Below, piece by piece: positions 7,089-31,040 of a DNA stretch of 64,000 nt. The position numbers and the translations under genes were made by a program. Below the pieces are notes generated by a model. The model saw only the letters and a program-made list of their open reading frames with translations. It had not been told where the DNA came from and did not search any database. Numbering within the stretch: the first letter of the stretch is position 1; every line of letters begins with the position of its first letter. Origin of the DNA: a virus; IMG/VR virus record IMGVR_UViG_3300029787_000003, positions 3,236 to 67,235 of that record. One strand, 5' to 3'.

Positions 7089-9713
7089 ATGGCCATAAAA
7101 TACGTTAGCGGTAAGACTAGAGAACTTAGAGTTGGTTTATCCAGTTATAGTGAGGGTAAAGCATCCTTACAAGTTATTGGAAATGTTGGTGTGGGAACTA
7201 CCAACCCACTTAGTGTGGCTAATCCTGCTAATACTTCAGTTATTAATGCTGGTATAGTAACTGCTAATAAATTGTTTGGTGATATAGTTGCTACTGGTGT
7301 AGGTATAACAAACTTAAATGTAACTGGTATATCAACATTTGGTGGAAATGTTTTTGTTGGTACAGGTGCGACAGTTGGATTTGGTACAAGTGCTTTCTTC
7401 CCAGACAATGCTGGTATATATTTCGGAGACGAAGAAGATTTAATTATATTTCATGACGGTAATCATTCTTACATAGATGATCAAGGTACTGGTAATTTAA
7501 AACTTAGATCAAATAATTTTAGAGTATCTAATGCAGATGAATCTAAACTATCTGCAACATTCCAAGCAGCAGGGGCTGCAGAGTTATATCATAATAATAA
7601 TTTAAGATTAACAAGTACAGATTCTGGTGTTGATGTAACTAATACTTTAAATGTTGTTGGTGTTTCTACATTTGGAAGTCTCATAGATGCTACCAGTGAT
7701 TTAAACGTTGGTGGTACATCATCATTTGTAAATGATGTAAGTGTTAGTGCAGCTGGTACTGTTGGATTTGGAACAACAGCATTCTTCAATAATGATTTAC
7801 GTATTGAGAGTCCACTTCCAAAAATATATCTAACAGATACAAACCATGATTCTGATTGGTATATCTCAAATAGTGATGGAACTATTATTTTTTATGACGT
7901 AACAACTACTAATACGAGATTTGAAATATATCCAGGTAATTCGCCAACAATTAGACCACGTATAAAAACTAATTATACTACTGATTCTATTTTTGAAGGA
8001 GAGACAACTCTTGGTGGGCATGGTCTCTCTCCTAGTCATTCCTTAACTGTTGCTGGTGTTTCTACATTTAATAGTTCAGTTGGTATTAATAGTCATCTTA
8101 ATGTAACTGGTGTTTCTACATTTTATGATGATGTAACCGTAGCTACTAGTAAGATAATAAATGTTGGTACATCTAATACTGTAAGACTTTTTAATAATGG
8201 TGCAATTTTTAGAATTCAAGGACAAGGAAATGCACTTCTTGCAATTGATACACCATCTTCATTAGTAGTGAATAGTGGTGCTACTAACGCTGCATTATTT
8301 AATCCAAGTTCATCTACAAAATTATATTTTGCTGGTACTGAAAGATTTGAAACATCTGGAATAGGTGTTAGTGTATATGATGCATTAACTGTAGCAGGTG
8401 TTTCTAGTTTCGTTGGTATATCAACATTCAATGGTAACGCAGAATTTCAAGGTAGTCTAACAACATTTGGAGGTACAGGCACAGGTGCAGGAAATGGTGG
8501 TGCACCATTTGCGATGTGGGCAAAAGCAAATAACTACTTATGGTTCTCTGATGACACAAGAATCCTAATGGGATTTGGTCAGACTTTAGAAATGAAGAGT
8601 GATGGTGAGTCAATAATTAGAGATACTAGAGCAGGTGTTGGTGGTACATTAGCAATTGGAGCAGATCATTTAATCCTTAGAAATAAGGATGGTAATGAAA
8701 AATATCTTGAAGCAACTGATAATGGCTCAGTTAAACTCTATCATGATTTTCTTCCTAGATTTGAGACTACTGGAATAGGAATTACAATTGCTGGTATTGG
8801 TAGTACAGCATACATCGAGGGCCCAGAGAACATAATAATAGATCCGCATCCATATGGTGTTGGTACTACTAGTGGTAACGTTTTCATTAGAGGTGATTTG
8901 TATGTAGAAGGTACAGAATTTATTGTTGATGTAGATAAGATAGAACTTGGTGACTTCCAAATTGGTATTGCAACAACTGCAGGTACTAATGTACTTCTTG
9001 ATGGTGCAGGTATTGGTATTGGTTCTACTAATATTAGAAAGTTTATTACTTGGAATAATGCAACCAATGCATTGATGAGTAGTGAGAACTGGAACCTAGC
9101 ATCAGGAAAACACTATGAGATTAATGGTACTGATGTACTAACTTCTGATACATTACAACTACTTGGAACGGGAGCACAAGTTCATTCACCTTCAAGTAAT
9201 ATATTAACTCTTAAGACGAATGGAGCTGAGAGACTTCGTGTAGATGCATCAGGTAATTTAGGTATTGGAACTGCTACACCAACAGACTCTGCTAATGCAG
9301 CAAATACATCAGTAACTTCTGCAGGTATTGTTACTGCAGTTGAATACTATGGTATATTCAAAGGATCTATCCCTGGCTTCTCAACTGTATTCTCATCAGG
9401 ACAAGGATTTTTTAGTGCAACTCCTGGTAGTGCACAGATTATAGATCAATTCGCATTCTCAACTCATGATTATAAAATTGCAGAATATACTTTACACTTT
9501 GTACATGCTAATGGAATACAAGCACAGAAATCCTTAGTCATGCAGAATAATTCTGTTGCATATTCAGAAGAGTATGGAGTCATGTATGATTCTGAATTAC
9601 TTGTTTCTATTGCTGCAACAGTAAGTGGTTCTAATGTTAATATCACTGCTACACCTGAAGCTGGTATCAGTGGAGTGACTACATTTAGATGGAGAAGGGA
9701 GGTTCAAACCTAA
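7089..9713 (+). CDS. Tail fibre protein with GIGTTNP-type repeats
   Basis: The 874-aa product is a typical fibrous protein with recurring VGVSTF, LNVTGVSTF, GIGTTNP and GIVTA segments of 30-60 residues. Blocks of short beta strands with HNG/DGTG turns follow (LIIFHDGNHSYIDD). The last 110 or so residues (QGFFSATPGSAQIIDQF to FRWRREVQT) form a distinct globular end with a hydrophobic core, a good candidate for a tip or trimerisation domain. Its stop overlaps the start of the protease gene (TAATG), implying coupled translation. No enzymatic motif is seen. Confidence 0.85.
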   Translation: MAIKYVSGKTRELRVGLSSYSEGKASLQVIGNVGVGTTNPLSVANPANTSVINAGIVTANKLFGDIVATGVGITNLNVTGISTFGGNVFVGTGATVGFGTSAFFPDNAGIYFGDEEDLIIFHDGNHSYIDDQGTGNLKLRSNNFRVSNADESKLSATFQAAGAAELYHNNNLRLTSTDSGVDVTNTLNVVGVSTFGSLIDATSDLNVGGTSSFVNDVSVSAAGTVGFGTTAFFNNDLRIESPLPKIYLTDTNHDSDWYISNSDGTIIFYDVTTTNTRFEIYPGNSPTIRPRIKTNYTTDSIFEGETTLGGHGLSPSHSLTVAGVSTFNSSVGINSHLNVTGVSTFYDDVTVATSKIINVGTSNTVRLFNNGAIFRIQGQGNALLAIDTPSSLVVNSGATNAALFNPSSSTKLYFAGTERFETSGIGVSVYDALTVAGVSSFVGISTFNGNAEFQGSLTTFGGTGTGAGNGGAPFAMWAKANNYLWFSDDTRILMGFGQTLEMKSDGESIIRDTRAGVGGTLAIGADHLILRNKDGNEKYLEATDNGSVKLYHDFLPRFETTGIGITIAGIGSTAYIEGPENIIIDPHPYGVGTTSGNVFIRGDLYVEGTEFIVDVDKIELGDFQIGIATTAGTNVLLDGAGIGIGSTNIRKFITWNNATNALMSSENWNLASGKHYEINGTDVLTSDTLQLLGTGAQVHSPSSNILTLKTNGAERLRVDASGNLGIGTATPTDSANAANTSVTSAGIVTAVEYYGIFKGSIPGFSTVFSSGQGFFSATPGSAQIIDQFAFSTHDYKIAEYTLHFVHANGIQAQKSLVMQNNSVAYSEEYGVMYDSELLVSIAATVSGSNVNITATPEAGISGVTTFRWRREVQT

Positions 9714-12700
9714 TGACTGAAGAAGAATATAATCAGCGAAAAGCATCCTTTGAAACACATAAAAACACATTAGAAAAAGAACCATCAGGATCAGATGTAA
9801 AAAAAGAATACTGGGTAGGTTGTAATTCAAAAGATGATTGGGATTTAATACATATACTGCTTCTTGAGGATGGTACTCTAGAAGATAACATTCCTAATGA
9901 TCATGTAGATTGTCCTAATGATTGTCGTCAAAGTGAGACTAGAGCTGTATATCTATTAACAGATACAGAAGTAACCGCACTTAAAAATCATCCACTAGTA
10001 AAATACGTACACATTAATACTTCAAAATATCCAGGAACTTATGCATCAAATCCTGATGATATTAAATCCGATGATCGAACTGATAGATATTCTTCTGCAA
10101 CAAAACATAAAAGAGATACATCAACTAACCAGTCAGATTATTTACCCACTTCACCAGACGCTACATTACTCAATAGAGGTTGTTATAATTTATTAAGACA
10201 TACAGAAAAGATTGATCCTTGGAGAGGAGGATTGTCTGCTACATATACAACTTCTGGAATTTATACTTGGACTTGTCCTGTTGGTGTAACGTCTGTTTCT
10301 GTAGTCTGTGTTGGTGGCGGTGGTGGAGGATATGATGATAATGGTGGAGGTGGTGGTGGCCTAGGATATAAAAATAATATATCAGTAACACCAGGTGTCG
10401 GTTATACAGTAGGGGTTGGTTCTTTTGGAAATAATAGTGCATACCCTGATAGTTATGGTGGAGATTCATATTTTATAAGCACATCTATTGTTAGAGGTGG
10501 TGGCGGCCATGGCGGTGGATATGCTGAAGAATATGGTGTACAATTACCTGGCGATGGTCTCGGTGGAACATTTACTGGAGATGGTGGTGGTAACGGTGGT
10601 AACGGTGGAACTGGTGGAGCATCTGGTGGCGGTGGTGCTGGTGGATATTCAGGAACTGGTGGAGCTGGTGGCGGCCCTACCCAAAATGGTAATGTTGGTG
10701 CTGGTGGCGGTGGCGGTGGCGGTGCTGGTGGTGAAGGATCTTATCCAAATAATTTCCTTGGTTCTTCTGGAGGTGGTGTAGGATTATTTGGAGCAGGTAC
10801 TAATGGTGCTGCTGGATCATATTCTGCTGGTGGAAATTCAACTGGTGCTACTGGAGGTTCGGGTGGTGGTACTGGTGCTGCTGGAGATTCTGGTTGTCCT
10901 TCAGCACAAAAAGGTGGAGACTATGGTGGTGGAGGAGGTTCAGGTAATAGAGGTAACTGTGCTGATGAAGGTGCTGTTGGTGCTGTAAGAATAGTTTGGG
11001 GAGGTGGTAGAGAATTCCCATCACAAAATGTTCAAGAAGTAGTGGCTGATTCAACTATACTTGATAGTGTGATTCCTCAATATGCAACAGGAAAAGATAT
11101 TGATGTAATTGTATGTGATGAAGATATGTGGTTTGGACATATTGAATTTATGAATCCAAGTGGTATAACAGACATTAAACAACAAGATAATGCAACTGCT
11201 GCAACCACTGCTGCACCAGCTAACTATGTTGGAACTAATGTTTTGAAGAGTGGATTTGCTACTTCATCTACAACTGGAATATGTGAATTGTTAGATATAG
11301 TTTTAGATGCTCCTTATTATATTGATAAGGAATGGTTTGAAGCAGATACAGGAAATAGATTAATGACTCGTTGGGATGGAACAAAAGTTCCAGTTGAATC
11401 TGTTGCAAGATCTTGGTGGTCTAATTCATCAAATAGGTCTGCTGCATTTTCAAGTGTAGGTACTGTATCAGTTCCTGCTGCATATACCAGAGCAAATAGT
11501 AATGGAAGTTATACTGCATATCATACTGGTGCTGGAAATCATGGAACTCCTTGTGCATCACAAACATATGGAAGACAATATGGTTGGGCTTATAATGCAA
11601 ACAAATGGTTCTTAAATCTTTATGGAACTAATAGTGTAGGACTTGAAGCAGGTTTTGATTTACAAAAAATATTTCATCAGAACAAACCAAATCGAAGTTC
11701 TGATAATACAAAAAATCCAACTGTATCAAGTAACAGTTGGGGATTGAGACAATCACCTACAACTTCTGGGTATTATTATTTCAGACAAGGTACAACTGGA
11801 GGAACTGGAACAAGTTACAGTAGTCTTCCTGCATTTATGAATTATTTTACGGGTGATGGATTAAATAGAAGAGCACCAGAATATGTTGATGGTCATGCAG
11901 CAATTACTGCTGGTGATGAGATGGTAAATGCAGGTGTTATCTTTGTATGTTCAGCTGGTAATAATAATCAGAAGCAAGTTCAAAGTAATCATGCAGATTA
12001 TAATAATTATTATGCATCAGGTTCAAGTGTAAACTATGTAAATGCAACAACTAATAGCATATATTCATTGATGAATTTTACACCCACTTATAATAGTTTG
12101 AATCGACAAGGGTTTCCAGCACAGATAGGTGTTGATAGAACCACTACTCCATATACTTATAAAACAATATCTATTGGTGCTTTAGATGATGATCATACTG
12201 CTGGAGGATTAGAACGAAAGGCATCCTACAGTAACATGGGTGATTGCACTGATTGTTTTGCTGCTGCAGATCAAACTCTATCTGCATCAGATGATAATTC
12301 TTCTCCAAGGTTTAATAGATATGATGCATACTATGATATTGGAACAACACAAGCTGTTGAATCAGAAGATAAAAACTTTAATGGAACTAGTTCTGCATGT
12401 CCTATAGCTGCAGGATTGATTGCTACTAAGTTAGAGACTAATAGAACTTGGACATATGCTGATGTTAAAAATTGGTTAGCAACTCAGGTTGAGGATACAA
12501 CAGATACATGGTTCTATAAGGGTACTGAAGCAACTACAGCAACTGATACTACTAACTGGAGTGACTATTATAATTTGCAGGGAGCTCAATTGAAAATTAT
12601 ATATGATGCACCATCTGCAGGTGGTGGCGGTGGAGGTGGTTCTGGTGGTGAAGAATCAGATGCAAAAGCATCAGTTACTGGCAGTAATCTCTCGATCAGT

Positions 12701-12721
12701 GGTAACTTCTCAATCACTTAA
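9713..12721 (+). CDS. Subtilisin-like (S8) serine protease with inserted glycine-rich adhesin domain
   Basis: The start at 9713 (TAATG overlap, preceded by GGGAGG) gives 1002 aa. Residues 1-170 include an inhibitor-I9-like prodomain stretch (AVYLLTDTEVTALKNHPLV). Residues about 176-432 are a self-contained glycine-rich domain. It opens with YTWTCPVGVTSVSVVCVGG, continues as GGxGG runs, and closes with GAVRIVWGGG, a domain type seen in phage adhesins. The catalytic domain follows: Asp469 in DVIVCDEDMWFGH, His610 in NHGTPCASQTYG, oxyanion Asn750 in SAGNNN, and nucleophile Ser893 in NGTSSACPIAAG. The triad is complete. A second Gly run and a SNLSISGNFSIT tail end the protein. No signal peptide is seen. 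It lies among fibre genes, so it is probably virion-associated. Cleaving host surface proteins or maturing fibres are both possible. Confidence 0.88.
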   Translation: MTEEEYNQRKASFETHKNTLEKEPSGSDVKKEYWVGCNSKDDWDLIHILLLEDGTLEDNIPNDHVDCPNDCRQSETRAVYLLTDTEVTALKNHPLVKYVHINTSKYPGTYASNPDDIKSDDRTDRYSSATKHKRDTSTNQSDYLPTSPDATLLNRGCYNLLRHTEKIDPWRGGLSATYTTSGIYTWTCPVGVTSVSVVCVGGGGGGYDDNGGGGGGLGYKNNISVTPGVGYTVGVGSFGNNSAYPDSYGGDSYFISTSIVRGGGGHGGGYAEEYGVQLPGDGLGGTFTGDGGGNGGNGGTGGASGGGGAGGYSGTGGAGGGPTQNGNVGAGGGGGGGAGGEGSYPNNFLGSSGGGVGLFGAGTNGAAGSYSAGGNSTGATGGSGGGTGAAGDSGCPSAQKGGDYGGGGGSGNRGNCADEGAVGAVRIVWGGGREFPSQNVQEVVADSTILDSVIPQYATGKDIDVIVCDEDMWFGHIEFMNPSGITDIKQQDNATAATTAAPANYVGTNVLKSGFATSSTTGICELLDIVLDAPYYIDKEWFEADTGNRLMTRWDGTKVPVESVARSWWSNSSNRSAAFSSVGTVSVPAAYTRANSNGSYTAYHTGAGNHGTPCASQTYGRQYGWAYNANKWFLNLYGTNSVGLEAGFDLQKIFHQNKPNRSSDNTKNPTVSSNSWGLRQSPTTSGYYYFRQGTTGGTGTSYSSLPAFMNYFTGDGLNRRAPEYVDGHAAITAGDEMVNAGVIFVCSAGNNNQKQVQSNHADYNNYYASGSSVNYVNATTNSIYSLMNFTPTYNSLNRQGFPAQIGVDRTTTPYTYKTISIGALDDDHTAGGLERKASYSNMGDCTDCFAAADQTLSASDDNSSPRFNRYDAYYDIGTTQAVESEDKNFNGTSSACPIAAGLIATKLETNRTWTYADVKNWLATQVEDTTDTWFYKGTEATTATDTTNWSDYYNLQGAQLKIIYDAPSAGGGGGGGSGGEESDAKASVTGSNLSISGNFSIT

Positions 12722-12749: not shown

Positions 12750-14885
12750 ATGGCAGATAAAGCATTTGGTGTAAAACAACTGAATATAATTGGTACTGGA
12801 ACCCCAACCATTGAAAGTCCTGGTGACTTGAGTTTGAAGGCTGGTACCGTAGCAATTAGTACCAACTTATATGTCGGTGGTATAACAACTCATATTGGAT
12901 TAACAACAACTACAAATGATTTGTATGTAGGATTGGGTTATACTATTCATGGAAATGGTAGTCAAATATATAAGGCACCATGGGGTCATGATGGTCTTTC
13001 TAATTATCTTAGCGATTATCAGGTAACAAATCCTGCAGTCGCAGCTTATGGTAGTTCAATAAGTGGTAATTGGAATGTTGTAGCAGGATATTTTGCAGCA
13101 TGTTGTGGTACTAGTATGAACTACAATGTAATTTTTGGTGAGAGTGCTGGAAGAAAATTAACAAGTGGTAGTAGAAATATTTTAATTGGATCAAAAACAG
13201 GTTGTGTTCTTGATGATGCTCAACAAAATATTATCATAGGATCCTGTGCAGGAGGTGCAGCAACAGGAAGTTATAATGTGGCATTAGGAATGTGTGCTTC
13301 ATGTAAAGTCACTGGAGATTATAACATTGCAATTGGCCTTCATGCTGCTGAAAATATTACAGCTTCTAATAGGAATATTGCTATAGGAAAGGATGCACGT
13401 AATGATGTTGGTGCTGGCGGTACGGATAATGTATTCCTAGGAACTTACGCTGGAGCAACAACTGCTGATCTTGAAAATGGTATAGGTATTGGCCCATCTG
13501 CTCATAGGAATGTGCAGGGAGATTGTAATGTTGCGATTGGTAATGAGGCAATGTTCGGTACAGCGATGGGAGAAGGTTATGATAACATTGCATTAGGTGC
13601 TCAAGCTGGATATGAAATTAATAATGGTTCAAATAATATATTTTTAGGAAAATGTTCTGGTGCAAAATCCACTAACGTACACCATAATATTTTTATGGGT
13701 TGTGGTACAGGATGTTGTACTACTGCTGGTTCATACAATGTATATCTTGGCCATGAAACTGGTAAATGTAATCAAGGTGGTGCTTGTAATGTTTACATTG
13801 GAAACAGAACAGGATTTGCTGCTACTGGTGGTGAACAAAACGTAGCCATTGGCCAAAGTGCAGGTTATAACAACAACATTGGTTCATATAATATTTTCTT
13901 TGGTTCTGGTGCTGGAACAAATAATGATGATGCAAATAAAAATGTTCTGATTGGCCAAAAAGCAGGTTTTTCTAATACCACAGGTCAATGTAATGTATTC
14001 GTTGGTGCTTATGCTGGATGTAAATCAGACAGTTCTGGTTCAAATAATTTATTAAATGTTGCTATTGGACATTGTGCAGGATTTTGTAATGCTGGTAATC
14101 GTAATATTGCTATAGGTTGGAAATCAGGTTGGAACAGTTCTTCTGCTGAGGATAATGTCGTCATTGGCTCTGAAGCTGGGCATTGTATTACGAATGGTGA
14201 CGACAATGTTCTTATAGGTATGAAGGCAGGATTCTGCCAGAATGGTGCAAATAGTAATGTTTTTATTGGATGTTGTGCTGGATATAATGCAGATAGTGGA
14301 GGTGCAAACGTTGCTCTAGGTGGTAATGCACTGGAACTAGTTCATGGTAATTATAATATTGGCCTTGGCTTTGCAGCTGGCGATGATATTACGACTGGTA
14401 GTAGAAATATAACAATTGGATGTAATGTTCAAGTACCTACTGCAGATGCTGATAATCAATTAGCGATTGGTTCTGGTTCTAATACTTGGATCAATGGTGA
14501 TAGTAATTTTGATGTAGGTATAGGAACTGCTACACCAACATCTAAGCTACATGTGGTTGGAGATTTTCTACTAACAGGTATTGCAACTGCTGTAGATTTT
14601 GATTCAACATCTGATATAAGATACAAGAAAAATATTCAAGCAATTGAAGATCCAATTTCTAAGGTTGTAAGTATTGAAGGTGTATCATTTAATTGGAAAG
14701 CAGATGATAGAGCTGCACTTGGTGTTATTGCTGACCAAGTTGAGACAGTATTACCAGAACTTGTTCGTGGTACTGATCCAAAGACAGTTAATTATAATGG
14801 TTTAATTGGATTATTAATTGAAGCGGTTAAGGAACAGCAAATTCAGATAGATAAACTGAACGAAAGAATTTCTAAATTAGAGTGA
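12750..14885 (+). CDS. Cysteine-rich repeat tail fibre with S74 intramolecular chaperone
   Basis: The 711-aa product has a short N-terminal fibre region. A long array (about residues 110-570) follows, of roughly 22-24-residue units with the core N-(I/V)-x-(I/L)-G-x-x-A-G (for example NIAIGLHAAE, NVFIGCCAGY). This is similar to the repeats of trimeric-adhesin-like phage fibres. I count about 22 Cys, nearly all at repeat turns (GDCNV, GKCSG). Then comes a GIGTATPTSKLHV linker and, from about residue 620, a peptidase-S74 chaperone domain: SDIRYKKNIQAIEDP, a FNWK strand, GVIADQVE and a C-terminal coiled coil. S74 domains fold trimeric fibres and usually cut themselves off just before the Ser of the SD motif. 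The sequence has its own late promoter. Confidence 0.88.
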   Translation: MADKAFGVKQLNIIGTGTPTIESPGDLSLKAGTVAISTNLYVGGITTHIGLTTTTNDLYVGLGYTIHGNGSQIYKAPWGHDGLSNYLSDYQVTNPAVAAYGSSISGNWNVVAGYFAACCGTSMNYNVIFGESAGRKLTSGSRNILIGSKTGCVLDDAQQNIIIGSCAGGAATGSYNVALGMCASCKVTGDYNIAIGLHAAENITASNRNIAIGKDARNDVGAGGTDNVFLGTYAGATTADLENGIGIGPSAHRNVQGDCNVAIGNEAMFGTAMGEGYDNIALGAQAGYEINNGSNNIFLGKCSGAKSTNVHHNIFMGCGTGCCTTAGSYNVYLGHETGKCNQGGACNVYIGNRTGFAATGGEQNVAIGQSAGYNNNIGSYNIFFGSGAGTNNDDANKNVLIGQKAGFSNTTGQCNVFVGAYAGCKSDSSGSNNLLNVAIGHCAGFCNAGNRNIAIGWKSGWNSSSAEDNVVIGSEAGHCITNGDDNVLIGMKAGFCQNGANSNVFIGCCAGYNADSGGANVALGGNALELVHGNYNIGLGFAAGDDITTGSRNITIGCNVQVPTADADNQLAIGSGSNTWINGDSNFDVGIGTATPTSKLHVVGDFLLTGIATAVDFDSTSDIRYKKNIQAIEDPISKVVSIEGVSFNWKADDRAALGVIADQVETVLPELVRGTDPKTVNYNGLIGLLIEAVKEQQIQIDKLNERISKLE

Positions 14886-14889
14886 TTGT

Positions 14890-14896
14890 CTAAATA
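14890..14896 (+). promoter_or_regulatory. T4-type late promoter box CTAAATA
   Basis: CTAAATATT lies 40 bp upstream of the ATG at 14937, in the short gap after the previous fibre gene. Confidence 0.55.
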
Positions 14897-14936
14897 TTAA
14901 ATAGAAAATACTACCCAGTGTATACGAGGACGGTAG

Positions 14937-17900
14937 ATGGCAATTAAGTTATCGGGCTCTACTATTATTGATGATAGTAGGCAGATTATAAATGCGGGTA
15001 ATGTGGGGATCGGAACCACAGACCCAACAGCAAAAGTAACAGCATCTAATACTGCAGTATTGGCTGCTGGTGTTGGTACTTTTCATAAAGTATATGGTGA
15101 TGGTAGTGAGTTAATCAATATTGGTTTAGGTGGTACAGATACTTGGAATCAAGATGCACAAGGTAACTTAGTTGCTGGTGTAGGTGCTGGTGTAGCGAGA
15201 GATGCAGATACTTGTAGTAACCTTTTCATAGGATGTTGTGCTGGTGCTGCTGTAAATTCAGGAGATAGAAATGTATTTCTTGGTTATTATGCAGCCAAAA
15301 GTACATTTACATCAGGTAATTGTAATGTTGCTATAGGTGATGAAGCAGGAAAATGTGGTAACGGTGATAATCAAGTCTTCTTAGGATCTTCTGCAGGATT
15401 CTGTATGAGTGGTGACGGTGGTGTGGCCATCGGTAAGAATGCAGGTCGTCATAAGACTAGTGGTATAGCTAACGTATTCATAGGTTGTTATGCTGGTTCA
15501 TGTGGTGGTACTGATGGATGTACTACTGTTGTTGGTGCTTTAGCAGGTAAATGTGGAGAAGGTGGTTGCAATGCAATCTTTGGATCTAAAGCAGGATTCA
15601 ATAATACATCAGGAGATTTTAATACATTCCTTGGATATCAGGCAGGTTGTTCTTCTACTTCTGGTTCAAATTTAGTTGCTATTGGTAATGCAGTTCAAGT
15701 TCCTTCACTAACTGGTGATACACAATTAGCAATTGGTGCTGGTGCTACCACTTGGATTACTGGTAATGATACTTTTAAGGTAGGTATAGGAACTACAACT
15801 TATACATCTTCATTAAATGTTCATAAAGACATTGGTGGTTATCAAGTTTTAAGTGCAGAAGGTGAAGGATCTACCACACTTGAAGTTAAAACTATATCTA
15901 AAACTGCAAAGCACAGATATCCTGGTGGTGGAGGTTCTAGTACTAGTGGATATGAAATAGATGGTGCTGAATCACCATACCTAACTCTAACACCAGGTAG
16001 AACATATAGATTTGAACAGTCTGATAGTAGTAATGATAATCATCCTTTAATATTTTATCTTGAAGCCAATAAGACAACAGAATATACAGCAGGTGTAAGT
16101 TATTATGCTGATGGTGCACAAGCAACCTCTGGTGCTTTTAGTTCCGCTTATAATTCAGCATCAGTTAGATATACAGAAATTACAGTAAGTGATGAGACAC
16201 CTTTGGTGCTTCATTATCAGTGCTATAACCATGGTTACATGGGAAATGCTATTAGTTTCCCTAATAATGTTCTCAATACAAACTATCAGTCAACCATCAG
16301 AGCAGACCTTCATGTTACTGGTATTGCTACTTTTGGTAGTGCATCACTTAAGTTAGATGGTACTAGCAATATTATTAATGTTGGAGCAGCATTAACTCTC
16401 GGACATTCACAAGGTATTCAATACCATACTCAGAATTTACATGCTACTGGTTTCGAAGTTAATCAAATTAATGCTTCAGGTATTACAACATTCACTAATG
16501 TAAAGGTTGGAACTGGTGCAACAATAGAATCGAATGGTAATGCAACTCTAGGTGTTCTAACAGCAACATCATTCCATGGTAGTGGTGCAGGATTAACTGG
16601 TCTTAATGTAAGATTCGATCCTGATTCACAAGAGAACTTATATGCTGGTACTAATGCTGGTGCAGATTCTGATTCTGATACTTGCTATAACGTTGCTATT
16701 GGTAAGAGTGCTGGTGCTCTTTTAAATTCAGGTGATTCTAACGTTTTCATTGGATGTAATGCAGCAAGACGTGCTACTTCTGGAACTGCTAATATTGCAA
16801 TTGGTCAAAATGTAGCAGCTGATGTTGGTAATACTGGTAATTGTCTAACTGGTAATTGCAATGTCATGTTGGGTACCTCAGCTGGTGGTAACCTTAGCAC
16901 TGGTTCATATAACCTATTGTTCGGATATGCTGCTGGTTTCTCTCTTAGTGGTAATTTTACTGGTAGTAATAATATCTTTATGGGTGGAGAGTCTGCCTCT
17001 CTTGGTGACATGTCTGGTAGTTGCAATATTGGATTAGGAAAATGTGTCTTCCAGAATATAGATTCTGGAGATGAGAACATAGCATTAGGTGTTAATGCTA
17101 TGGCTAATGGTACTGTAACTGGTAAACAAAATATAGTACTAGGTACATGTGCTGGTAACAGATTATCAAGTGGTTCTCAAAACCTCTTTTTAGGTGCTTA
17201 TGCAAACACTGGTTTACCACTTGTAACTGGAAACCATAATATTGCTATAGGTCATAGTGTATCAGTCGCAGATCATACTGCTAGTTGTCAATTAGCTATT
17301 GGTGTTGGTAATACTCATTGGATTACTGGTAATGCTAACTTCAATGTTGGTATCGGAACCACTGATCCAGATGCTCCTGTTGGTTCTGGAGTTACTGCTA
17401 AGTTATCGGCTGGTATTGTATCTGCCTTTACTTTCTATGGTGATGGTTCAAACTTAAGTGGTATTGTTGCTAGTGGACAAGGTATTCAAATTAGAGACAA
17501 TAATTCTTTGATTGGTACTGCTGGAACAATAAACTTTTCTACAAACTTATCCGTCTCTGCTATTTCTGGTGCTGCTGTTACTATAACCAGTCAAGGATTA
17601 TGGACTGCAGACGCACAAGAAAACTTATTTGCAGGAACTTGTTCAGGATATAATAGAGACTCAGATACCTGTTTCAATATTGGTATAGGTTATAGTGCAG
17701 GTGAAGCATTAAATGAAGGTGATGAGAATATCTTTATAGGTAGATGTTCAGGTACAAAATCAGTTACAGCTAGCAATAATGTTTTCTTAGGATCAAACAC
17801 TGGTGAATGGGGTATCCTTGGTGATGATAACTTTTTTGCGGGAACTGCTGCTGGTAGATGTAAACAGGGTGGTAGTGAAAACGTTGCATTAGGCCCATTT

Positions 17901-20048
17901 GCATTACTAGGTTCTTCAACACCAGGTCTTAACCAATCTAATAGTAATATTGCTATTGGAATGAGAGCAGGTGCACTAGCACAATCTGGTAGTTGTAATA
18001 TTTTGATAGGTAGAGATTCAGGTACCTGCATAACTACTGGATGTATGAACGTTGCAATTGGCCGTTCAACTGCTAGTGGGAGTGCTGTTACTGGTAATTA
18101 TAACGCTTTATTCGGAGAAAGTGCAGCTAAATGTTTGGCTGGTGGTGATCGTAATACAGTTATTGGCCGATGGGCAGGAAAATATTTAACAAATGGTAGT
18201 CAAAACACCATCTTAGGCCATAGTGCAGGTTGTTGTGTAACTAATGGTAATTGTAATACTCTCATTGGTAATGGTGCTGGTAAAAGAATTCAAACTGGTT
18301 TCAATAACATTACTATAGGCCGTGAAGCTGGTCAAAATATAACGAATGCTAGTAATAATATCGTCATTGGATGTCAGGTTGATACTACATCAGACGGTGC
18401 AAGTGGAGAATTAAGAATTGGTGCTGGTTCAACCATATTAATTAGTGGTGAATTCGATGGTGGAACTGTAACTCTTGCTGGTCTTGCAACTGCTAATCCT
18501 ACTGCTGGTATTCTTAGCACTAGAGATTTCCATACAGATCAACTTAGTGTAACTGGTCTCTCTACCTTTACTGCTAATGTAAGTATTGCTTCAACCTTAT
18601 TTGTGAAAGCAAGAGCAGGTTATGGGAAAGATCAATTAATTGTTGGTGATGAAGCCACATATAATGAACAAATAAAATTATGGCGACAGAGTAATGGTTC
18701 AGTAATAGATTTTACTCATGATGATGACCCTAATGCAATTAGATCGGCCGATATTTTATCACTTAGAGCTAGTTACACAACCAGCACAGCAAATACTTTC
18801 AATGGTTTTGGTATTGATATTGATGATTCTCAAATTTTTCCATCCCATAATTATAGACCCAATTTAGGAACTCCACTCAACAACTTTGGTAACATATACG
18901 CAACTGGTATTATTACTGCTGCAGCTATTGGTGGCCCTGTTGGTATTATCACATACTATGGTGATGGTTCTAAACTACAAGGTGTTGCAGGTGGTCTTAA
19001 TGTTCAGGATGAAGGTGTTACATTAGCAACACAAGCAACCACTCTTAACTTTGAAGGTTCTGGTGTTAGTGCTACTGGTACTGGTGCAACTAAAACTATT
19101 ACTATCTCTGGTGGTGGTGGATCGACTGGTGCTTGGTCTCCTGATGATGATCAAAACTTATTTGCTGGTACTAGAGCTGGTAGATGTTTAGATGGTACCA
19201 ATGGTTGCTTCAACGTATTCCTTGGATGTAATGCTGGTCAATGTACTGATTCTGGTGCTGAGAATATATTTGCAGGTAAGGGTGCAGGTTTTGGTAACCA
19301 AAGTGGTGATTATAATATTTTCTTAGGCTCTTATGCAGGTAAATGCAATACTGTTGGTTATGGTAACGTATTGTTTGGTAAAGAAGTTGGATTCTGTTTG
19401 GATACAGGTATTCATAACTTCTATGCACTAGAAAGAGCAGGTAGTAATGCTTATAATGGTTGTGATAACATTGCAATTGGTAGATGTGCTGGTTATGAGA
19501 TGCAATCTAACGACAATGTTCTTTTAGGCCGAAATGCTGGTAGAGGACAAGTCTTTGGTCATCGAAATGTTGTTATCGGTATGGATGCTGGTAGGTGTGG
19601 TGAACGTGGTGATAATAATGTAATGATTGGTTGCAATGCAGGTCGTTGTAACCAAGGAACAGGTAACGTATTCTTAGGCCATAATACTGGTTCTGCTGTT
19701 ACTAGTGCTAGTGGTAATGTTGTTATTGGATGTAATGTATCACTTGCATCTTCTGTTATAGATCATCAACTAGCAATTGGTGTTGGTAATACAAACTGGA
19801 TCACTGGTATTGAGAACTACAACCTCGGTATCGGAAGTGATAGACCAAGAGTTGCTCTTGATGTTGCTGGAACGGTAGCAACAAGAACGTTCTTCCAGAA
19901 TGAAGTTGAATTGCGTAGTAGTGAAACCTTCCCTAAAGAAGGTGGCCCAGTAAATGGAGGTGTATTTGGCCCATATACTATTGGAACTGGTGCTTGTCTT
20001 ACTATCGGGCCTGGATCTACATTTACTATCATTGGAATACCTGAATAA
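14937..20048 (+). CDS. Very long cysteine-rich repeat tail fibre
   Basis: The 1703-aa product is built from four large blocks of N-x-x-(I/L)-G-x-x-A-G repeats (near residues 75-275, 570-790, 890-1180 and 1450-1650). Blocks typically open with a phrase like DAQENLFAGT, followed by DSDTC, and close with QLAIGxGxxxWITGN; most are followed by a GIGTT linker. Between blocks are YGDGSxLxGI modules found in other fibres of this window. I count about 46 Cys, mostly at repeat turns, far more than in other fibres here. One inter-block domain (about residues 320-450) contains HxPLIFYLE and ends in VLHYQCYNHGYMGNAI, which resembles a cupredoxin-like fold seen in phage fibres. No chaperone domain is visible at the C-terminus (FTIIGIPE). 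Confidence 0.87.
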   Translation: MAIKLSGSTIIDDSRQIINAGNVGIGTTDPTAKVTASNTAVLAAGVGTFHKVYGDGSELINIGLGGTDTWNQDAQGNLVAGVGAGVARDADTCSNLFIGCCAGAAVNSGDRNVFLGYYAAKSTFTSGNCNVAIGDEAGKCGNGDNQVFLGSSAGFCMSGDGGVAIGKNAGRHKTSGIANVFIGCYAGSCGGTDGCTTVVGALAGKCGEGGCNAIFGSKAGFNNTSGDFNTFLGYQAGCSSTSGSNLVAIGNAVQVPSLTGDTQLAIGAGATTWITGNDTFKVGIGTTTYTSSLNVHKDIGGYQVLSAEGEGSTTLEVKTISKTAKHRYPGGGGSSTSGYEIDGAESPYLTLTPGRTYRFEQSDSSNDNHPLIFYLEANKTTEYTAGVSYYADGAQATSGAFSSAYNSASVRYTEITVSDETPLVLHYQCYNHGYMGNAISFPNNVLNTNYQSTIRADLHVTGIATFGSASLKLDGTSNIINVGAALTLGHSQGIQYHTQNLHATGFEVNQINASGITTFTNVKVGTGATIESNGNATLGVLTATSFHGSGAGLTGLNVRFDPDSQENLYAGTNAGADSDSDTCYNVAIGKSAGALLNSGDSNVFIGCNAARRATSGTANIAIGQNVAADVGNTGNCLTGNCNVMLGTSAGGNLSTGSYNLLFGYAAGFSLSGNFTGSNNIFMGGESASLGDMSGSCNIGLGKCVFQNIDSGDENIALGVNAMANGTVTGKQNIVLGTCAGNRLSSGSQNLFLGAYANTGLPLVTGNHNIAIGHSVSVADHTASCQLAIGVGNTHWITGNANFNVGIGTTDPDAPVGSGVTAKLSAGIVSAFTFYGDGSNLSGIVASGQGIQIRDNNSLIGTAGTINFSTNLSVSAISGAAVTITSQGLWTADAQENLFAGTCSGYNRDSDTCFNIGIGYSAGEALNEGDENIFIGRCSGTKSVTASNNVFLGSNTGEWGILGDDNFFAGTAAGRCKQGGSENVALGPFALLGSSTPGLNQSNSNIAIGMRAGALAQSGSCNILIGRDSGTCITTGCMNVAIGRSTASGSAVTGNYNALFGESAAKCLAGGDRNTVIGRWAGKYLTNGSQNTILGHSAGCCVTNGNCNTLIGNGAGKRIQTGFNNITIGREAGQNITNASNNIVIGCQVDTTSDGASGELRIGAGSTILISGEFDGGTVTLAGLATANPTAGILSTRDFHTDQLSVTGLSTFTANVSIASTLFVKARAGYGKDQLIVGDEATYNEQIKLWRQSNGSVIDFTHDDDPNAIRSADILSLRASYTTSTANTFNGFGIDIDDSQIFPSHNYRPNLGTPLNNFGNIYATGIITAAAIGGPVGIITYYGDGSKLQGVAGGLNVQDEGVTLATQATTLNFEGSGVSATGTGATKTITISGGGGSTGAWSPDDDQNLFAGTRAGRCLDGTNGCFNVFLGCNAGQCTDSGAENIFAGKGAGFGNQSGDYNIFLGSYAGKCNTVGYGNVLFGKEVGFCLDTGIHNFYALERAGSNAYNGCDNIAIGRCAGYEMQSNDNVLLGRNAGRGQVFGHRNVVIGMDAGRCGERGDNNVMIGCNAGRCNQGTGNVFLGHNTGSAVTSASGNVVIGCNVSLASSVIDHQLAIGVGNTNWITGIENYNLGIGSDRPRVALDVAGTVATRTFFQNEVELRSSETFPKEGGPVNGGVFGPYTIGTGACLTIGPGSTFTIIGIPE

Positions 20049-27554: not shown

Positions 27555-28442
27555 ATGAATAAAAAATATTATTTTATGGGAGGGCTTCCACGTTCTGGAA
27601 GTACCCTCCTTTCTTCTATCTTAAATCAGAATCCAAGATTTTATTCAGGCCCATCAAGTCCTGTACTTGGTGCGATGGTTTCTACTCATGATAATTTCTT
27701 ACAGAATGAACTATATCATGGGTATCCAAAACCATATCAGGTGAATGAAATTGTTGGTTCAATTATAGGTCATTGGTATAGTGATGTAGATAAACCAGTC
27801 ATTATTGATAAGAATCGTGCATGGACATCGAACGTTTCATTCATTGAAGGATACTTAAACATAGAACCAAAGATAATTTTACCAGTAAGAAGGGTTGATG
27901 AGATATTAACATCCATACTTAAGATGATTCATCGCAATCCTTTTAAAGAAGGGCAATCAAGAATTAATTTTGTAGATGAATTTCTAGTAAAAAATAATAC
28001 TCCTATCAATGATGAGGAACGTTGTAATCATCTTTTAAATCCTAGTGGTATTGTTTATGAGTCATTAAATGCTATCATGGATGGGTTTAAGGATCAAAAA
28101 CGTGACAAATTTCACTTTATAGACTATAATGATTTGGTAAACGATCCACAGAAAGAGTTGGATAGTATCTATGATTTCTTAGGTGAAGAATCATTCGAAC
28201 ATAGTTTTGATGATCTATCTAATCAATATAGAGAAGATGATCTCAATACATATGGTCTAACTGATATGCATGAAGTTCGTTCGGACATATCGAAGACTTC
28301 TGATCATCCATCTAATGTTCTTCCCTCTTCTATTATTGATCTATATAATAGAAATAGACAGAACTTAGAGTTTTGGACTGAACCTGAGGTTGTTAAAATT
28401 AATCCTCCTAAAGCACCTACATCATATAATATCTTTTCATAA
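27555..28442 (+). CDS. PAPS-dependent sulfotransferase family protein
   Basis: The 295-aa product begins MNKKYYFMGGLPRSGSTLLS. The LPRSGSTLL loop is the 5'-phosphosulfate-binding motif of sulfotransferases. A 3'-phosphate-type region follows with Arg/Ser (LPVRRVDEILTSILKM), and a conserved FIDYNDLVNDPQKELDSIYDFLG segment matches the usual YEDLVxxPxxxLxxIxxFLG. The acceptor is unknown; a glycan or protein on the host or virion surface is plausible given the glycosyltransferase two bases downstream. Family call firm, role inferred. Confidence 0.88.
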   Translation: MNKKYYFMGGLPRSGSTLLSSILNQNPRFYSGPSSPVLGAMVSTHDNFLQNELYHGYPKPYQVNEIVGSIIGHWYSDVDKPVIIDKNRAWTSNVSFIEGYLNIEPKIILPVRRVDEILTSILKMIHRNPFKEGQSRINFVDEFLVKNNTPINDEERCNHLLNPSGIVYESLNAIMDGFKDQKRDKFHFIDYNDLVNDPQKELDSIYDFLGEESFEHSFDDLSNQYREDDLNTYGLTDMHEVRSDISKTSDHPSNVLPSSIIDLYNRNRQNLEFWTEPEVVKINPPKAPTSYNIFS

Positions 28443-28444
28443 TT

Positions 28445-29338
28445 ATGACTAAAAAATATTCTTTATTCCATGTACAAGGTGGGTTTGGAAAGCATATTGC
28501 AGCTACAGCAGTAGCAAAATGTATAAAAAATAATCATCCAAGTAGAGAACTAATATTAACTGCTGTTTATACAGAAATATATCAGAACCTTCCATTTGTA
28601 GATAGAGTATATCAATTAGGAAACACAAGTTATTATTATCAAACTTATGTGGAGGATATGGATTCATTAATCTTTGCTAATGAACCATACTTTACAACTG
28701 ATCATGTAAATAAAAAACTACCTTTGATACAGACTTGGAGTAAGATGTATGGTCTGAAGTATAAAGGTGAGATGCCTCAGATTACATTCAATCATCTTCA
28801 AAAAAAGATTGCTAAAGAATTCTGGATTAATAGATCAAATGGTAAACCTATCTTAGTCATACAAACTAATGGTGGATTATTAAATGAGCAAAGACCTTAT
28901 CTATGGGCTAGAGATATGCCTATAGCATTAGCACAGAAATTAGTAGATCATTATGAAAAGGATTACCATATCTTCCAGATAACTAAACCAACTGGTGAAG
29001 TATTAGATGGTGTAGAAGTTATTAATACTCCTATGAGTAACATGGAACTTGTAAGTATATTATTACAGAGTGAGAAAAGAATCTTTATTGATAGTTGTAT
29101 GCAACATGCTGCTGCAGCATTGAAGATGCCTTCAGTAGTTCTATGGAATGGTACAAGTCCAAAAGTATTTGGATGGGATATGCATACTAATATACAAGCA
29201 AGAAAACCTGCTAAGTTTAAACTACCTAACAGTGTGTTCTTTGACTTTGATTTTATTGGTGTTGAAGCCGAGTATCCATACGTTGATGAAGAGGAAGACA
29301 TCTTTGATTTTGATAAGATTATAGAGGCAGTTGGTTAA
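28445..29338 (+). CDS. GT9-like glycosyltransferase (heptosyltransferase fold)
   Basis: The 297-aa product shows the GT-B pattern of heptosyltransferase-like enzymes. The N-terminus is HVQGGFGKHIAATAVAKCIK (glycine loop plus helix). A middle segment starts the second Rossmann domain (KPILVIQTNGG). Near the C-terminus, DSCMQHAAAALKMPSVVLWNG corresponds to the family DS...HxAaAlxxPxvxlfG motif. A very acidic C-terminus (DEEEDIFDFDKI) is unusual. It sits between a sulfotransferase and a carbamoyltransferase, so a role in building or modifying a surface saccharide is likely. The donor sugar cannot be told. Confidence 0.78.
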   Translation: MTKKYSLFHVQGGFGKHIAATAVAKCIKNNHPSRELILTAVYTEIYQNLPFVDRVYQLGNTSYYYQTYVEDMDSLIFANEPYFTTDHVNKKLPLIQTWSKMYGLKYKGEMPQITFNHLQKKIAKEFWINRSNGKPILVIQTNGGLLNEQRPYLWARDMPIALAQKLVDHYEKDYHIFQITKPTGEVLDGVEVINTPMSNMELVSILLQSEKRIFIDSCMQHAAAALKMPSVVLWNGTSPKVFGWDMHTNIQARKPAKFKLPNSVFFDFDFIGVEAEYPYVDEEEDIFDFDKIIEAVG

Positions 29339-29339
29339 C

Positions 29340-31040
29340 ATGAATGTTGTTGGACTTTATGGTGCTATAGGTTGGAATGTTGTACTTTCTAATCATCCTA
29401 AGTTAGAAAAGGAAGTAAATGATAGTTGGACACATGGTGCTAGTGTAACCTTATTTAAGGATGATAACCATATATGTAGTGTAAGTGAGGAAAGACTTAG
29501 TAGAGTAAAATATGATGGTAACTTCCCCAGAAAGTCTATAGAATATTGTTTATCTGTTGGTAATTTAGATAAAAAAGATATTGATTTGGTAGTCATTCCT
29601 TCTATGGCTAACCAACAATTTTATAAGTATTGGATCAATGGTACTGTTACAAAAAAAGTAAAAAGATATTTTCCAAATGCAAGAGTGCAGGTAGTATCTC
29701 ATCACATATGTCACGCAGCATCAACAATATTTTCTTGTGATTATAATGAAGGTGCCTTCGTTACATTAGATAATGCAGGATCAGTTTTGTTTGATACTGT
29801 AGGACAGATATTTGCCTGTGAAAATCATTCATTAGGTTATTTTAATAAGAGAAAAGGTATATTCAAATATTTTCCTGGTGTTCCTCAGATGAATAACTTT
29901 GGAAATTATTATTGGTTGTGGGCATATAATATCTACGTTAATAAAATTGATAAAGATATTAAATTAACTGACCCATATTATAGAGAGACATTCTGTGGTA
30001 AGGTAATGGGTCTCTCTGCCTATGGAAATTTAAAAGAACTACCAAAGGATGGTAGGGTTGCTATGGAAGGTATGCCTCAGGTTGCTATGGAATATCTACC
30101 TCAGACAGGTAAAATGGGCCCATATGAAAACCTAACACCAGAAAATAAAGCACAACTTCTTCAGCATAACTTTGAACAAGGTATGTTAACGTACATGAAA
30201 TTGTTGAAAGAAGAAACATATATTCAAGACAATCTTTGCCTTGCTGGTGGTGTCTTCTTAAATATTCTTGCTAACTCTGTGCTTCATGAGAATAATATTG
30301 CAGATAATATACACATACCACCATTCCCTGATGATACTGGACTCTCATTTGGAGCAGCATGTTATGGTATATTTAAAAATAAAGGGAAGGTAAACCTACC
30401 TCACAATATATCATTATTAGGTAAGACTTATACTGACGAAGAGATTGAACAAGCACTTGGAGATATTAAGTATAAGAAGTATGATAACTTTGATGAATTA
30501 TGTGAGGTGGTATCAAAACTTCTTACAGACAATAAGATTGTAGGATGGTTTCAGAACAGATCTGAATTTGGGCCTAGAGCACTTGGTTCAAGGTCTATCC
30601 TTATGAATCCTAAGTCTAAGAAAAACAAGAGTATTATAAACGAACGTATCAAGCATAGAGAGGAGTGGAGACCCTTTGCAGGTATTATGTTAGAGGAATA
30701 TCAAGAAGATTATTTTGAGGAGACATATCCTAATGATTATATGCTATACTCTTTGACTGTACGGAAGCATAAGAGAAAAAATCTTGCTGCTATTACTCAT
30801 GAAGATGGTTCTTGTAGAATACAAACAGTGAATAAGGAATTACATCCAGAAGTCACTACTCTTCTAGAAAAATATAAAGAAGAAACAGGGTGTCCTATTC
30901 TTCTAAATACATCTTTCAATGATAATGGACAACCAATTGTTGAGACTCCAGAACATGCTGTTGAGACTTTTAACAATATTGATTTAGATTACTTATGTAT
31001 CGGCAATTACATTATAAATAAAAATTTCAAAGACACATGA
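29340..31040 (+). CDS. NodU/CmcH-type carbamoyltransferase
   Basis: The 566-aa product uses the ATG at 29340 (TTG at 29331 is less likely). These enzymes make carbamoyl-adenylate from carbamoyl phosphate and ATP and transfer the carbamoyl group to a hydroxyl. Family features: SEERLSRVKYDGNFP near residue 48; the Kae1-like metal motif SHHICHAAS; AGGVFLNILANSVL; and the C-terminal domain with FGPRALGSRSIL, EWRPFAGIML and NTSFNDNGQPIVETPEHA. Members are common in cyanomyoviruses. It overlaps the glutaredoxin start (ATGA). The substrate is probably a sugar or nucleoside hydroxyl (inference). Confidence 0.93.
   Translation: MNVVGLYGAIGWNVVLSNHPKLEKEVNDSWTHGASVTLFKDDNHICSVSEERLSRVKYDGNFPRKSIEYCLSVGNLDKKDIDLVVIPSMANQQFYKYWINGTVTKKVKRYFPNARVQVVSHHICHAASTIFSCDYNEGAFVTLDNAGSVLFDTVGQIFACENHSLGYFNKRKGIFKYFPGVPQMNNFGNYYWLWAYNIYVNKIDKDIKLTDPYYRETFCGKVMGLSAYGNLKELPKDGRVAMEGMPQVAMEYLPQTGKMGPYENLTPENKAQLLQHNFEQGMLTYMKLLKEETYIQDNLCLAGGVFLNILANSVLHENNIADNIHIPPFPDDTGLSFGAACYGIFKNKGKVNLPHNISLLGKTYTDEEIEQALGDIKYKKYDNFDELCEVVSKLLTDNKIVGWFQNRSEFGPRALGSRSILMNPKSKKNKSIINERIKHREEWRPFAGIMLEEYQEDYFEETYPNDYMLYSLTVRKHKRKNLAAITHEDGSCRIQTVNKELHPEVTTLLEKYKEETGCPILLNTSFNDNGQPIVETPEHAVETFNNIDLDYLCIGNYIINKNFKDT

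Follow-up and report, generated by a model that had tools for sequence, protein, structure and literature searches.

Cysteine-rich NxxIG solenoid tail fibres of aquatic phages co-occur with a glycosyltransferase and sulfotransferase module: possible S-glycosylation of fibre cysteines

Two Cys-rich tail fibre genes in a marine phage record

The 64-kb stretch of DNA analysed here (the window) derives from the 152-kb virus record IMGVR_UViG_3300029787_000003. The baseplate hub/lysozyme protein of this phage matched cyanophage and marine T4-like records only, and its best match was the single-cell virus AG-345-L05 (a Kyanoviridae record). Two tail fibre genes follow one another on the + strand. 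The first (12750..14885) encodes a 711-aa protein composed of an N-terminal segment, about 28 NxxIG rungs, a cap and a C-terminal S74 chaperone domain, with 22 Cys in total. Its NxxIG beta-solenoid (13074..14504, + strand, approximately residues 109-585) carries Cys at rung sites 6, 7, 10, 11, 16 and 17. The Peptidase_S74/endosialidase-type intramolecular chaperone (14610..14768, + strand) was recognised by a Pfam match of residues 621-673 to PF13884 (E 1.4e-12, 48.1 bits, cut-off 22), and this region also matched the sequence of the T4-type long tail fibre distal subunit 6f45 (E 2.7e-6). In a Pfam search of both fibres at E up to 0.1, S74 alone was found. The second gene (14937..20048) encodes a 1703-aa tail fibre with 46 Cys and four NxxIG solenoid blocks, all on the + strand: block 1 (15165..15791, approximately residues 77-285), block 2 (16629..17351, residues 565-805), block 3 (17616..18461, residues 894-1175) and block 4 (19149..19835, residues 1405-1633). 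Each block starts with DxQxNLxAGxxAG and ends with QLAIGxGxTxWITG. A cupredoxin-like domain with a conserved H...C-x2-H-x2-M motif (15819..16281, + strand) lies between blocks 1 and 2.

An earlier sequence-only reading had estimated about 22 and 46 Cys in the two fibres and only a few in the other fibres of the window. The counts proved exact, and the remaining fibre-like ORFs contain 0 to 10 Cys each (0/874, 8/934, 10/2119, 6/1877 and 3/663 Cys per aa). All other ORFs of the window have a mean Cys content of 0.92%, and the binomial tails for the Cys excess are 1.4e-6 for the 711-aa and 3.5e-10 for the 1703-aa fibre.

The fibre pair is kept in the related contigs L106 and L108, where a fibre that ends in ...TVNYNGLxGLLIE... 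comes before one beginning MAIKISGSTIIDDSR. Orthologues of the second fibre vary in length, with about 44 rungs in the window, 109-126 in L106 and 131-147 in L108, which suggests expansion or contraction of the solenoid. When the 1703-aa fibre was compared with its relative in contig L081, blocks 2 and 3 aligned badly, the flanks were about 90% identical and the Cys density was preserved, as if these two blocks had been swapped as cassettes. Directly upstream of the first NxxIG fibre lies a subtilase (PF00082) ORF (window 9689-12721); PSSM2_297 of P-SSM2, upstream of the related P-SSM2 fibre, is likewise annotated as a subtilase.

Cysteines are confined to the free doublets of a 17-residue rung

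The NxxIG repeat proposed in the sequence-only reading was recovered as rungs of 16-18 residues, mostly 17, with the consensus N1-V2-x3-I4-G5-x6-x7-A8-G9-x10-x11-N12-T13-T14-G15-x16-x17. The repeat is a 17-residue beta-solenoid rung with three unconstrained doublets (6,7 / 10,11 / 16,17). In the parsed rungs, all 20 Cys of the 711-aa fibre and 37 of the 38 Cys of the 1703-aa fibre occupy these six sites; the other Cys of both fibres belong to partial rungs, caps or the cupredoxin-like domain (Cys429). The regular placement of Cys by the repeat, also claimed earlier, was thus upheld as a confinement to the free doublets, a trait of these two fibres.

In 1011 17-residue rungs from 34 Cys-rich proteins, a set partly picked with Cys-containing patterns, Cys was present at sites 6, 7, 10, 11, 16 and 17 in 12, 19, 14, 21, 13 and 11% of rungs, respectively, and was the commonest or a top-three residue at each of them. 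It was found in none of the 1011 rungs at sites 1, 3, 4, 5, 8 and 12. A second sample of 115 solenoid proteins was collected with a DNA pattern blind to Cys. Among its Cys-rich members (975 rungs), Cys made up 6.9-23.9% of residues at the six sites, against 0.0% at sites 1-5, 8, 9, 12 and 15. Rung Cys content in this sample was below 1.5% in 83 of the 115 proteins and 2-8.4% in the other 32. Because no protein fell between 1.5 and 2%, Cys-richness is a discrete, bimodal state and not the tail of a distribution. Random codons at the given base composition would give 3.7-3.9% Cys anywhere; it is not the Cys total that is extreme against this expectation but the placement. The free sites contain 14% Cys in Cys-rich solenoids versus 1.4% in their Cys-poor relatives, and the density in Cys-rich solenoids is about 0.8 Cys per rung. 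Ser, Asn and Tyr also occur frequently at these six positions. At site 17 of Cys-rich rungs His is more frequent (9.7% versus 1.2%), and it follows a Cys at site 16 more often (20% versus 6%). No clear sequon was found around the rung Cys.

Several simple origins of the cysteines were considered and rejected. A role as small core residue does not agree with the 0/1011 rungs at core sites or with the exchange of Cys with K/R/N/D/Q/H, and a general trait of the repeat does not agree with the 83 Cys-poor proteins in the Cys-blind sample. DGR-like diversification was dismissed as the source, since the phage record has no reverse transcriptase (PF00078) and since K, Q and E, which lie outside the NNY set, are common at the free sites. 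A cellular origin of the Cys-rich form was discarded after a search for NxxIGxCAGxC in 84,980 species genomes, which returned 14 matches with a single real solenoid, on a Paceibacterota MAG contig (L151); none of the other matches listed was a solenoid. The L151 protein (957 aa, 39 Cys), the only Cys-rich NxxIG solenoid recognised in this collection, could be viral.

Predicted structure of the solenoid

An AF2 model of residues 85-711 of the 711-aa fibre as a monomer had a mean pLDDT of 66, with values of 75-89 in the middle of the solenoid. In this model 19 of 20 rungs form a strand at sites 2-4, and sites 5-10 are coil, so that the Cys sites are predicted to lie mostly outside the strands. 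From these strand positions, together with the residues that exchange with Cys, we infer that the Cys sites are exposed. A Foldseek search of the solenoid against the PDB gave no match at E <= 0.001. A VIA comparison returned mostly generic beta-helix tailspikes, with a tail part of Staphylococcus phage Andhra on top (Z 19.5); VIA matches were left out of the classification. BFVD structural matches of the NxxIG repeat include Bodo saltans virus, Tenacibaculum phage pT24 and P-SSM5. The Chlorovirus glycoprotein repeat PF06598 and phage NxxIG repeats (phrog_6002, phrog_4636) have the same repeat grammar as the window fibres; the relative L083 scored 25.7 bits against PF06598 (cut-off 27), and the window fibres themselves gave no match to it at E up to 0.1. 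Most NxxIG-type repeats of other phages differ from those of the window in having few or no Cys and no enzyme module of the kind described below.

The rung cysteines are nearly independent of one another

Coupling between Cys was assessed in 1023 rungs of 34 Cys-rich solenoids by shuffles within each chain. If disulphides or metal sites were fixed in a homo-oligomer, coupling would be expected, except where a symmetry axis brings a residue together with its own copies. The sequence-only reading had proposed ladders of Cys for disulphides along the fibre, which the data did not bear out: Cys did not recur at the same site in the following rung more often than expected (113 observed versus 121 expected), nor were most specific pairs enriched. 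All within-rung pairs were slightly avoided (246 versus 282), and all pairs one rung apart numbered 594 versus 622. Sites 7 and 11 in one rung formed the sole raised group (135 versus 108), and this grouping was made post hoc. Of the 38 rung Cys in the 1703-aa fibre, 22 lack a same-doublet Cys up to one rung away, and 8 lack any other Cys over this distance. Cysteines at different sites and rungs are therefore nearly independent. A same-residue bond across three chains at a trimer axis is possible and would leave no coupling signal, although only some of the six sites could meet their own copies at such an axis.

Cys was conserved between close relatives, with a significant difference from other residues in one fibre only. 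In the 711-aa orthologues (84% overall identity) 19 of 20 Cys were kept, as compared with 73% of the non-Cys residues at these sites (Fisher p = 0.02), whereas in the 1703-aa orthologues the differences (89% versus 83% and 74% versus 67%) were not significant. Replacements of Cys were mostly polar or charged residues (K, R, N, D, Q, H) and not core residues.

A glycosyltransferase and sulfotransferase module co-occurs with Cys-rich solenoids

Three genes of a putative modification module lie downstream of the fibres on the + strand of the window. They encode a sulfotransferase (27555..28442; PF13469, E 2.6e-15), which is a candidate fibre-decorating enzyme, a GT9/heptosyltransferase-like glycosyltransferase (28445..29338; phrog_8954, E 4e-8), which is a candidate for action on the fibre Cys, and a Nol-like carbamoyltransferase (29331..31040; PF16861, E 2e-66; phrog_1601) as a possible third decorating enzyme. 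The glycosyltransferase gene is located 8.4 kb from the fibres, and its product has 297 aa and 2 Cys. The match of this protein to PF01075 was weak (E 0.027, 14.2 bits), as was that of its orthologue in contig L133 (E 0.0011, 18.8 bits), both below the cut-off of 22; another Cys-rich phage (G029) gave a match above the cut-off (28.9 bits). A profile of the glycosyltransferase retrieved only weak WaaC matches from the PDB (E 0.36).

In a first set of records, which was partly Cys-selected, the GT9-like gene was present in 20 of 33 Cys-rich and, at useful similarity, in 0 of 12 clearly Cys-poor records; P-SSM2 gave a marginal 21% match. In the Cys-blind sample, the glycosyltransferase profile matched 21 of 30 Cys-rich versus 0 of 49 Cys-poor records (Fisher 2e-12), and 12 of 18 versus 0 of 38 when only contigs of 15-60 kb were counted (3e-8); many records are related, so that these p-values overstate independence. 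Nineteen of the 21 positive records were strong matches. Matches to the sulfotransferase family above cut-off were obtained in 20 of the 30 Cys-rich records and in none of the 49 Cys-poor ones. Nine of the 30 Cys-rich records had no glycosyltransferase; these were mostly short fragments, but one was 52 kb long. A 259-kb Cys-rich contig without an orthologue contained another GT9 match that exceeds the Pfam cut-off and lies in the company of sulfotransferase-like and carbamoyltransferase-like genes. Cys-rich solenoids thus co-occur with the glycosyltransferase and the sulfotransferase.

The enzyme was also used as the starting point. In a search of 50,697 phage records, the glycosyltransferase of the window matched only AG-345-L05 and, weakly, the Pelagibacter phages HTVC111P and HTVC112P. 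The enzyme of AG-345-L05 is 84% identical and its solenoid fibre has 4.0% Cys; in HTVC111P and HTVC112P (about 24% identity) the gene annotated as a glycosyltransferase comes immediately after that of an NxxIG fibre, which has about 2% Cys. With a second glycosyltransferase query, AG-345-P14 and O18, both marine, were added at about 25% identity. These two contain ORFs with 9-11% Cys and no recognisable rungs (L395:5105-5962; L396:10016-13158), within about 1 kb upstream of the distant glycosyltransferase relative. Among IMG/VR contigs with the enzyme, 39 of 80 showed a Cys-rich NxxIG solenoid in the retrieved flanks. Where enzyme and Cys-rich solenoid were present in one retrieved locus, they were at most 3 kb apart in 74 of 82 loci, and the glycosyltransferase was downstream on the same strand in 70 of 82, in a count for which the contigs were partly redundant. 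Control tail-fibre records not chosen for Cys-rich solenoids gave a strong enzyme match in 4 of 44. In G085 and G086 a Cys-dense GG solenoid is located close to the enzyme; in the other two (G099, G103) there is none within about 8 kb of it.

The association was observed again in a second type of solenoid. Several diverged enzyme carriers have, in place of NxxIG, a 15-residue GG repeat (STIGGGxxNTxSGxY). Most GG solenoids in a sample blind to Cys were rich in it; Cys occupied sites 7, 8, 10 and 12-15, outside the core of this repeat, and was absent from sites 1-3, 5, 6, 9 and 11. The enzyme profile matched 29 of 40 Cys-rich versus 1 of 8 Cys-poor GG records; the lone Cys-poor exception (G083) has a GG solenoid with 3.4% Cys directly upstream of its glycosyltransferase, and counting it as Cys-rich changes the tally to about 30/41 versus 0/7. 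Because of the relatedness of the records, this replication is a better argument than the p-values. The association of enzyme and Cys holds for both solenoid types and over a range of enzyme identities from about 96% to about 25%. A 465-kb phage contig (L404:13413-18869) encodes a 1819-aa GG solenoid with 9.4% Cys, and glycosyltransferase and sulfotransferase-like genes lie 2-3 kb upstream of it.

Possible function of the module and alternative explanations

S-glycosylation is rare, and to our knowledge the known Cys-linked glycosyltransferases (SunS and the glycocin enzymes) belong to families other than the GT9-like one. A literature search, mostly outside subscription journals, found no paper on Cys-rich phage solenoids or Cys-glycosylated tail fibres. 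We consider it likely that the module modifies or otherwise serves the Cys-rich fibre, be it through the Cys, other residues or another target. Phage-encoded S-glycosylation of tail-fibre Cys, suggested by sequence and by analogy with TibC, a GT-B heptosyltransferase that modifies serines of the beta-solenoid adhesin TibA many times (PMC4358343), is the explanation preferred here, at just short of an even chance. The exposed rung Cys would act as acceptors for a sugar transferred by the GT9/heptosyltransferase-like enzyme of the phage, this sugar would be modified further by the sulfotransferase and in some phages also by the carbamoyltransferase, and the fibre would leave the cell as a densely S-glycosylated rod, comparable to the action of TibC on TibA. 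Such a decoration might be used for receptor binding, solubility or shielding in seawater. Attachment sites are proposed because the Cys appear exposed, are mutually independent and of steady density, and because the module is lacking in phages with Cys-poor solenoids; the near-independence in particular fits separate acceptors. A broader proposal, that S-linked, probably sulfated glycans on free-turn Cys constitute a recurrent system of aquatic phages which is programmable on a repeat scaffold, is put forward tentatively.

The strong association by itself does not mark Cys as the acceptor. The module might decorate Ser, Thr, Asn or Tyr of the fibre, or another virion or host target, with a separate and co-selected role of the Cys; Ser, Asn and Tyr are common at the same six sites, and the known targets of phage glycosyltransferases include DNA, host surfaces and virions (PMC12619734). 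However, the module tracks Cys and not the solenoid, being absent from all 49 records with Cys-poor but Ser/Asn/Tyr-rich solenoids, and it tracks Cys in the GG solenoid too, which makes this explanation unlikely. It is also conceivable that there is no functional link at all, the Cys being merely tolerated at free positions and the module being a marker of lineage or habitat. The Cys do occupy the unconstrained sites, and a large number of the Cys-rich records belong to marine phages related to each other, but mere tolerance explains neither the bimodal Cys content nor a free-site frequency that exceeds both that of Cys-poor relatives and that of random codons, nor does common lineage explain the recurrence of the association across distant enzymes and two solenoid types. 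We regard the absence of a link as improbable.

Thiol chemistry of the Cys themselves was considered as well. Dense and regularly placed Cys could reinforce the fibre if cytosolic thiols were oxidised after lysis and cross-linked rungs or chains, as the tail of phage Milano is stabilised by disulphide networks (PMC10811340), and the weak excess of sites 7 and 11 in one rung would agree with this. Most pairs show no coupling, however, many rung Cys of the 1703-aa fibre lack a partner nearby, and disulphides leave the association with glycosyltransferase and sulfotransferase unexplained, so that such reinforcement is quite unlikely. Exposed thiols might also bind Cu, Zn or Fe or take part in thiol-disulphide exchange with the host, for which the raised His at site 17 and after Cys16 and the separate cupredoxin-like domain could be quoted. 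Here the Cys do not cluster as would be expected of fixed metal sites, and the cupredoxin-like domain is present in many marine phage fibres without Cys-rich solenoids; metal binding or surface thiol chemistry therefore seems hardly probable.

Comparison with known systems

TibC and other bacterial autotransporter heptosyltransferases, which act on TibA and AIDA-I, are GT-B enzymes encoded beside a beta-solenoid adhesin that they decorate repeatedly (PMC4358343); a similar arrangement is proposed for these phages. TibC forms a dodecamer and has an iron finger of four Cys (PMC4358343), whereas the phage enzyme is shorter, diverged and, in the window, has only two Cys, too few for such a finger. 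The acceptor of TibC is serine; in the phage system the proposed acceptor is Cys and a sulfotransferase is added. Phage Milano resembles the window phage in having Cys-rich tail parts that are exposed after lysis (PMC10811340). Specific disulphides were seen by cryo-EM in its sheath, baseplate and tail parts (PMC10811340), whereas the solenoid Cys analysed here show no pairwise coupling. The YadA-type head, a left-handed parallel beta-roll, is likewise a short-rung beta-solenoid with N and I-G motifs and free turn positions (PMC9543794). Its rung is the 14-residue GxNSVAIGAxSxAx, in contrast to the 17-residue NxxIG rung of the window fibre, which moreover gave no YadA-head Pfam match and ends in S74 instead of a membrane anchor. 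Structural proteins of mycobacteriophages are glycosylated (Freeman et al. 2023, as cited in PMC12619734); the modification reported there concerns the C-termini of capsid and tail-tube subunits and not tail-fibre Cys.

If S-glycosylation of the fibre Cys is correct, a frequent and so far unexplained sequence oddity of aquatic phage fibres would obtain a function tied to specific enzymes, and a sugar coat would have to be included in how these phages meet their hosts or resist damage. A phage family that glycosylates Cys on a regular scaffold would also be a new source of cysteine glycosyltransferases. Even with a wrong acceptor, the association of Cys and module is a genomic rule for future fibre studies to explain. 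Since HTVC111P and HTVC112P are cultured Pelagibacter phages, the S-glycosylation of fibre Cys can be tested directly.

Cupredoxin-like domain of the 1703-aa fibre

The AF2 model of the cupredoxin-like domain had a pLDDT of 85.7 and a pTM of 0.84. Its Foldseek matches were nearly all cupredoxins and multicopper oxidases, with rusticyanin on top (E 1.6e-4, probability 1.0, TM 0.39-0.46), at TM-scores of only 0.39-0.47 and rmsd of 5-8. The type-1 copper ligand set His, Cys, His, Met (HPL...YxCxxHxxMG) is conserved in nearly all relatives that cover the domain. Because sequence relatives recur in at least 166 marine phage records, the domain is not tied to the Cys-rich state. The predicted fold and the conserved ligands make a type-1 copper site in phage tail fibres possible; in P-SSM2, PSSM2_298 matched PF00127 above the cut-off.
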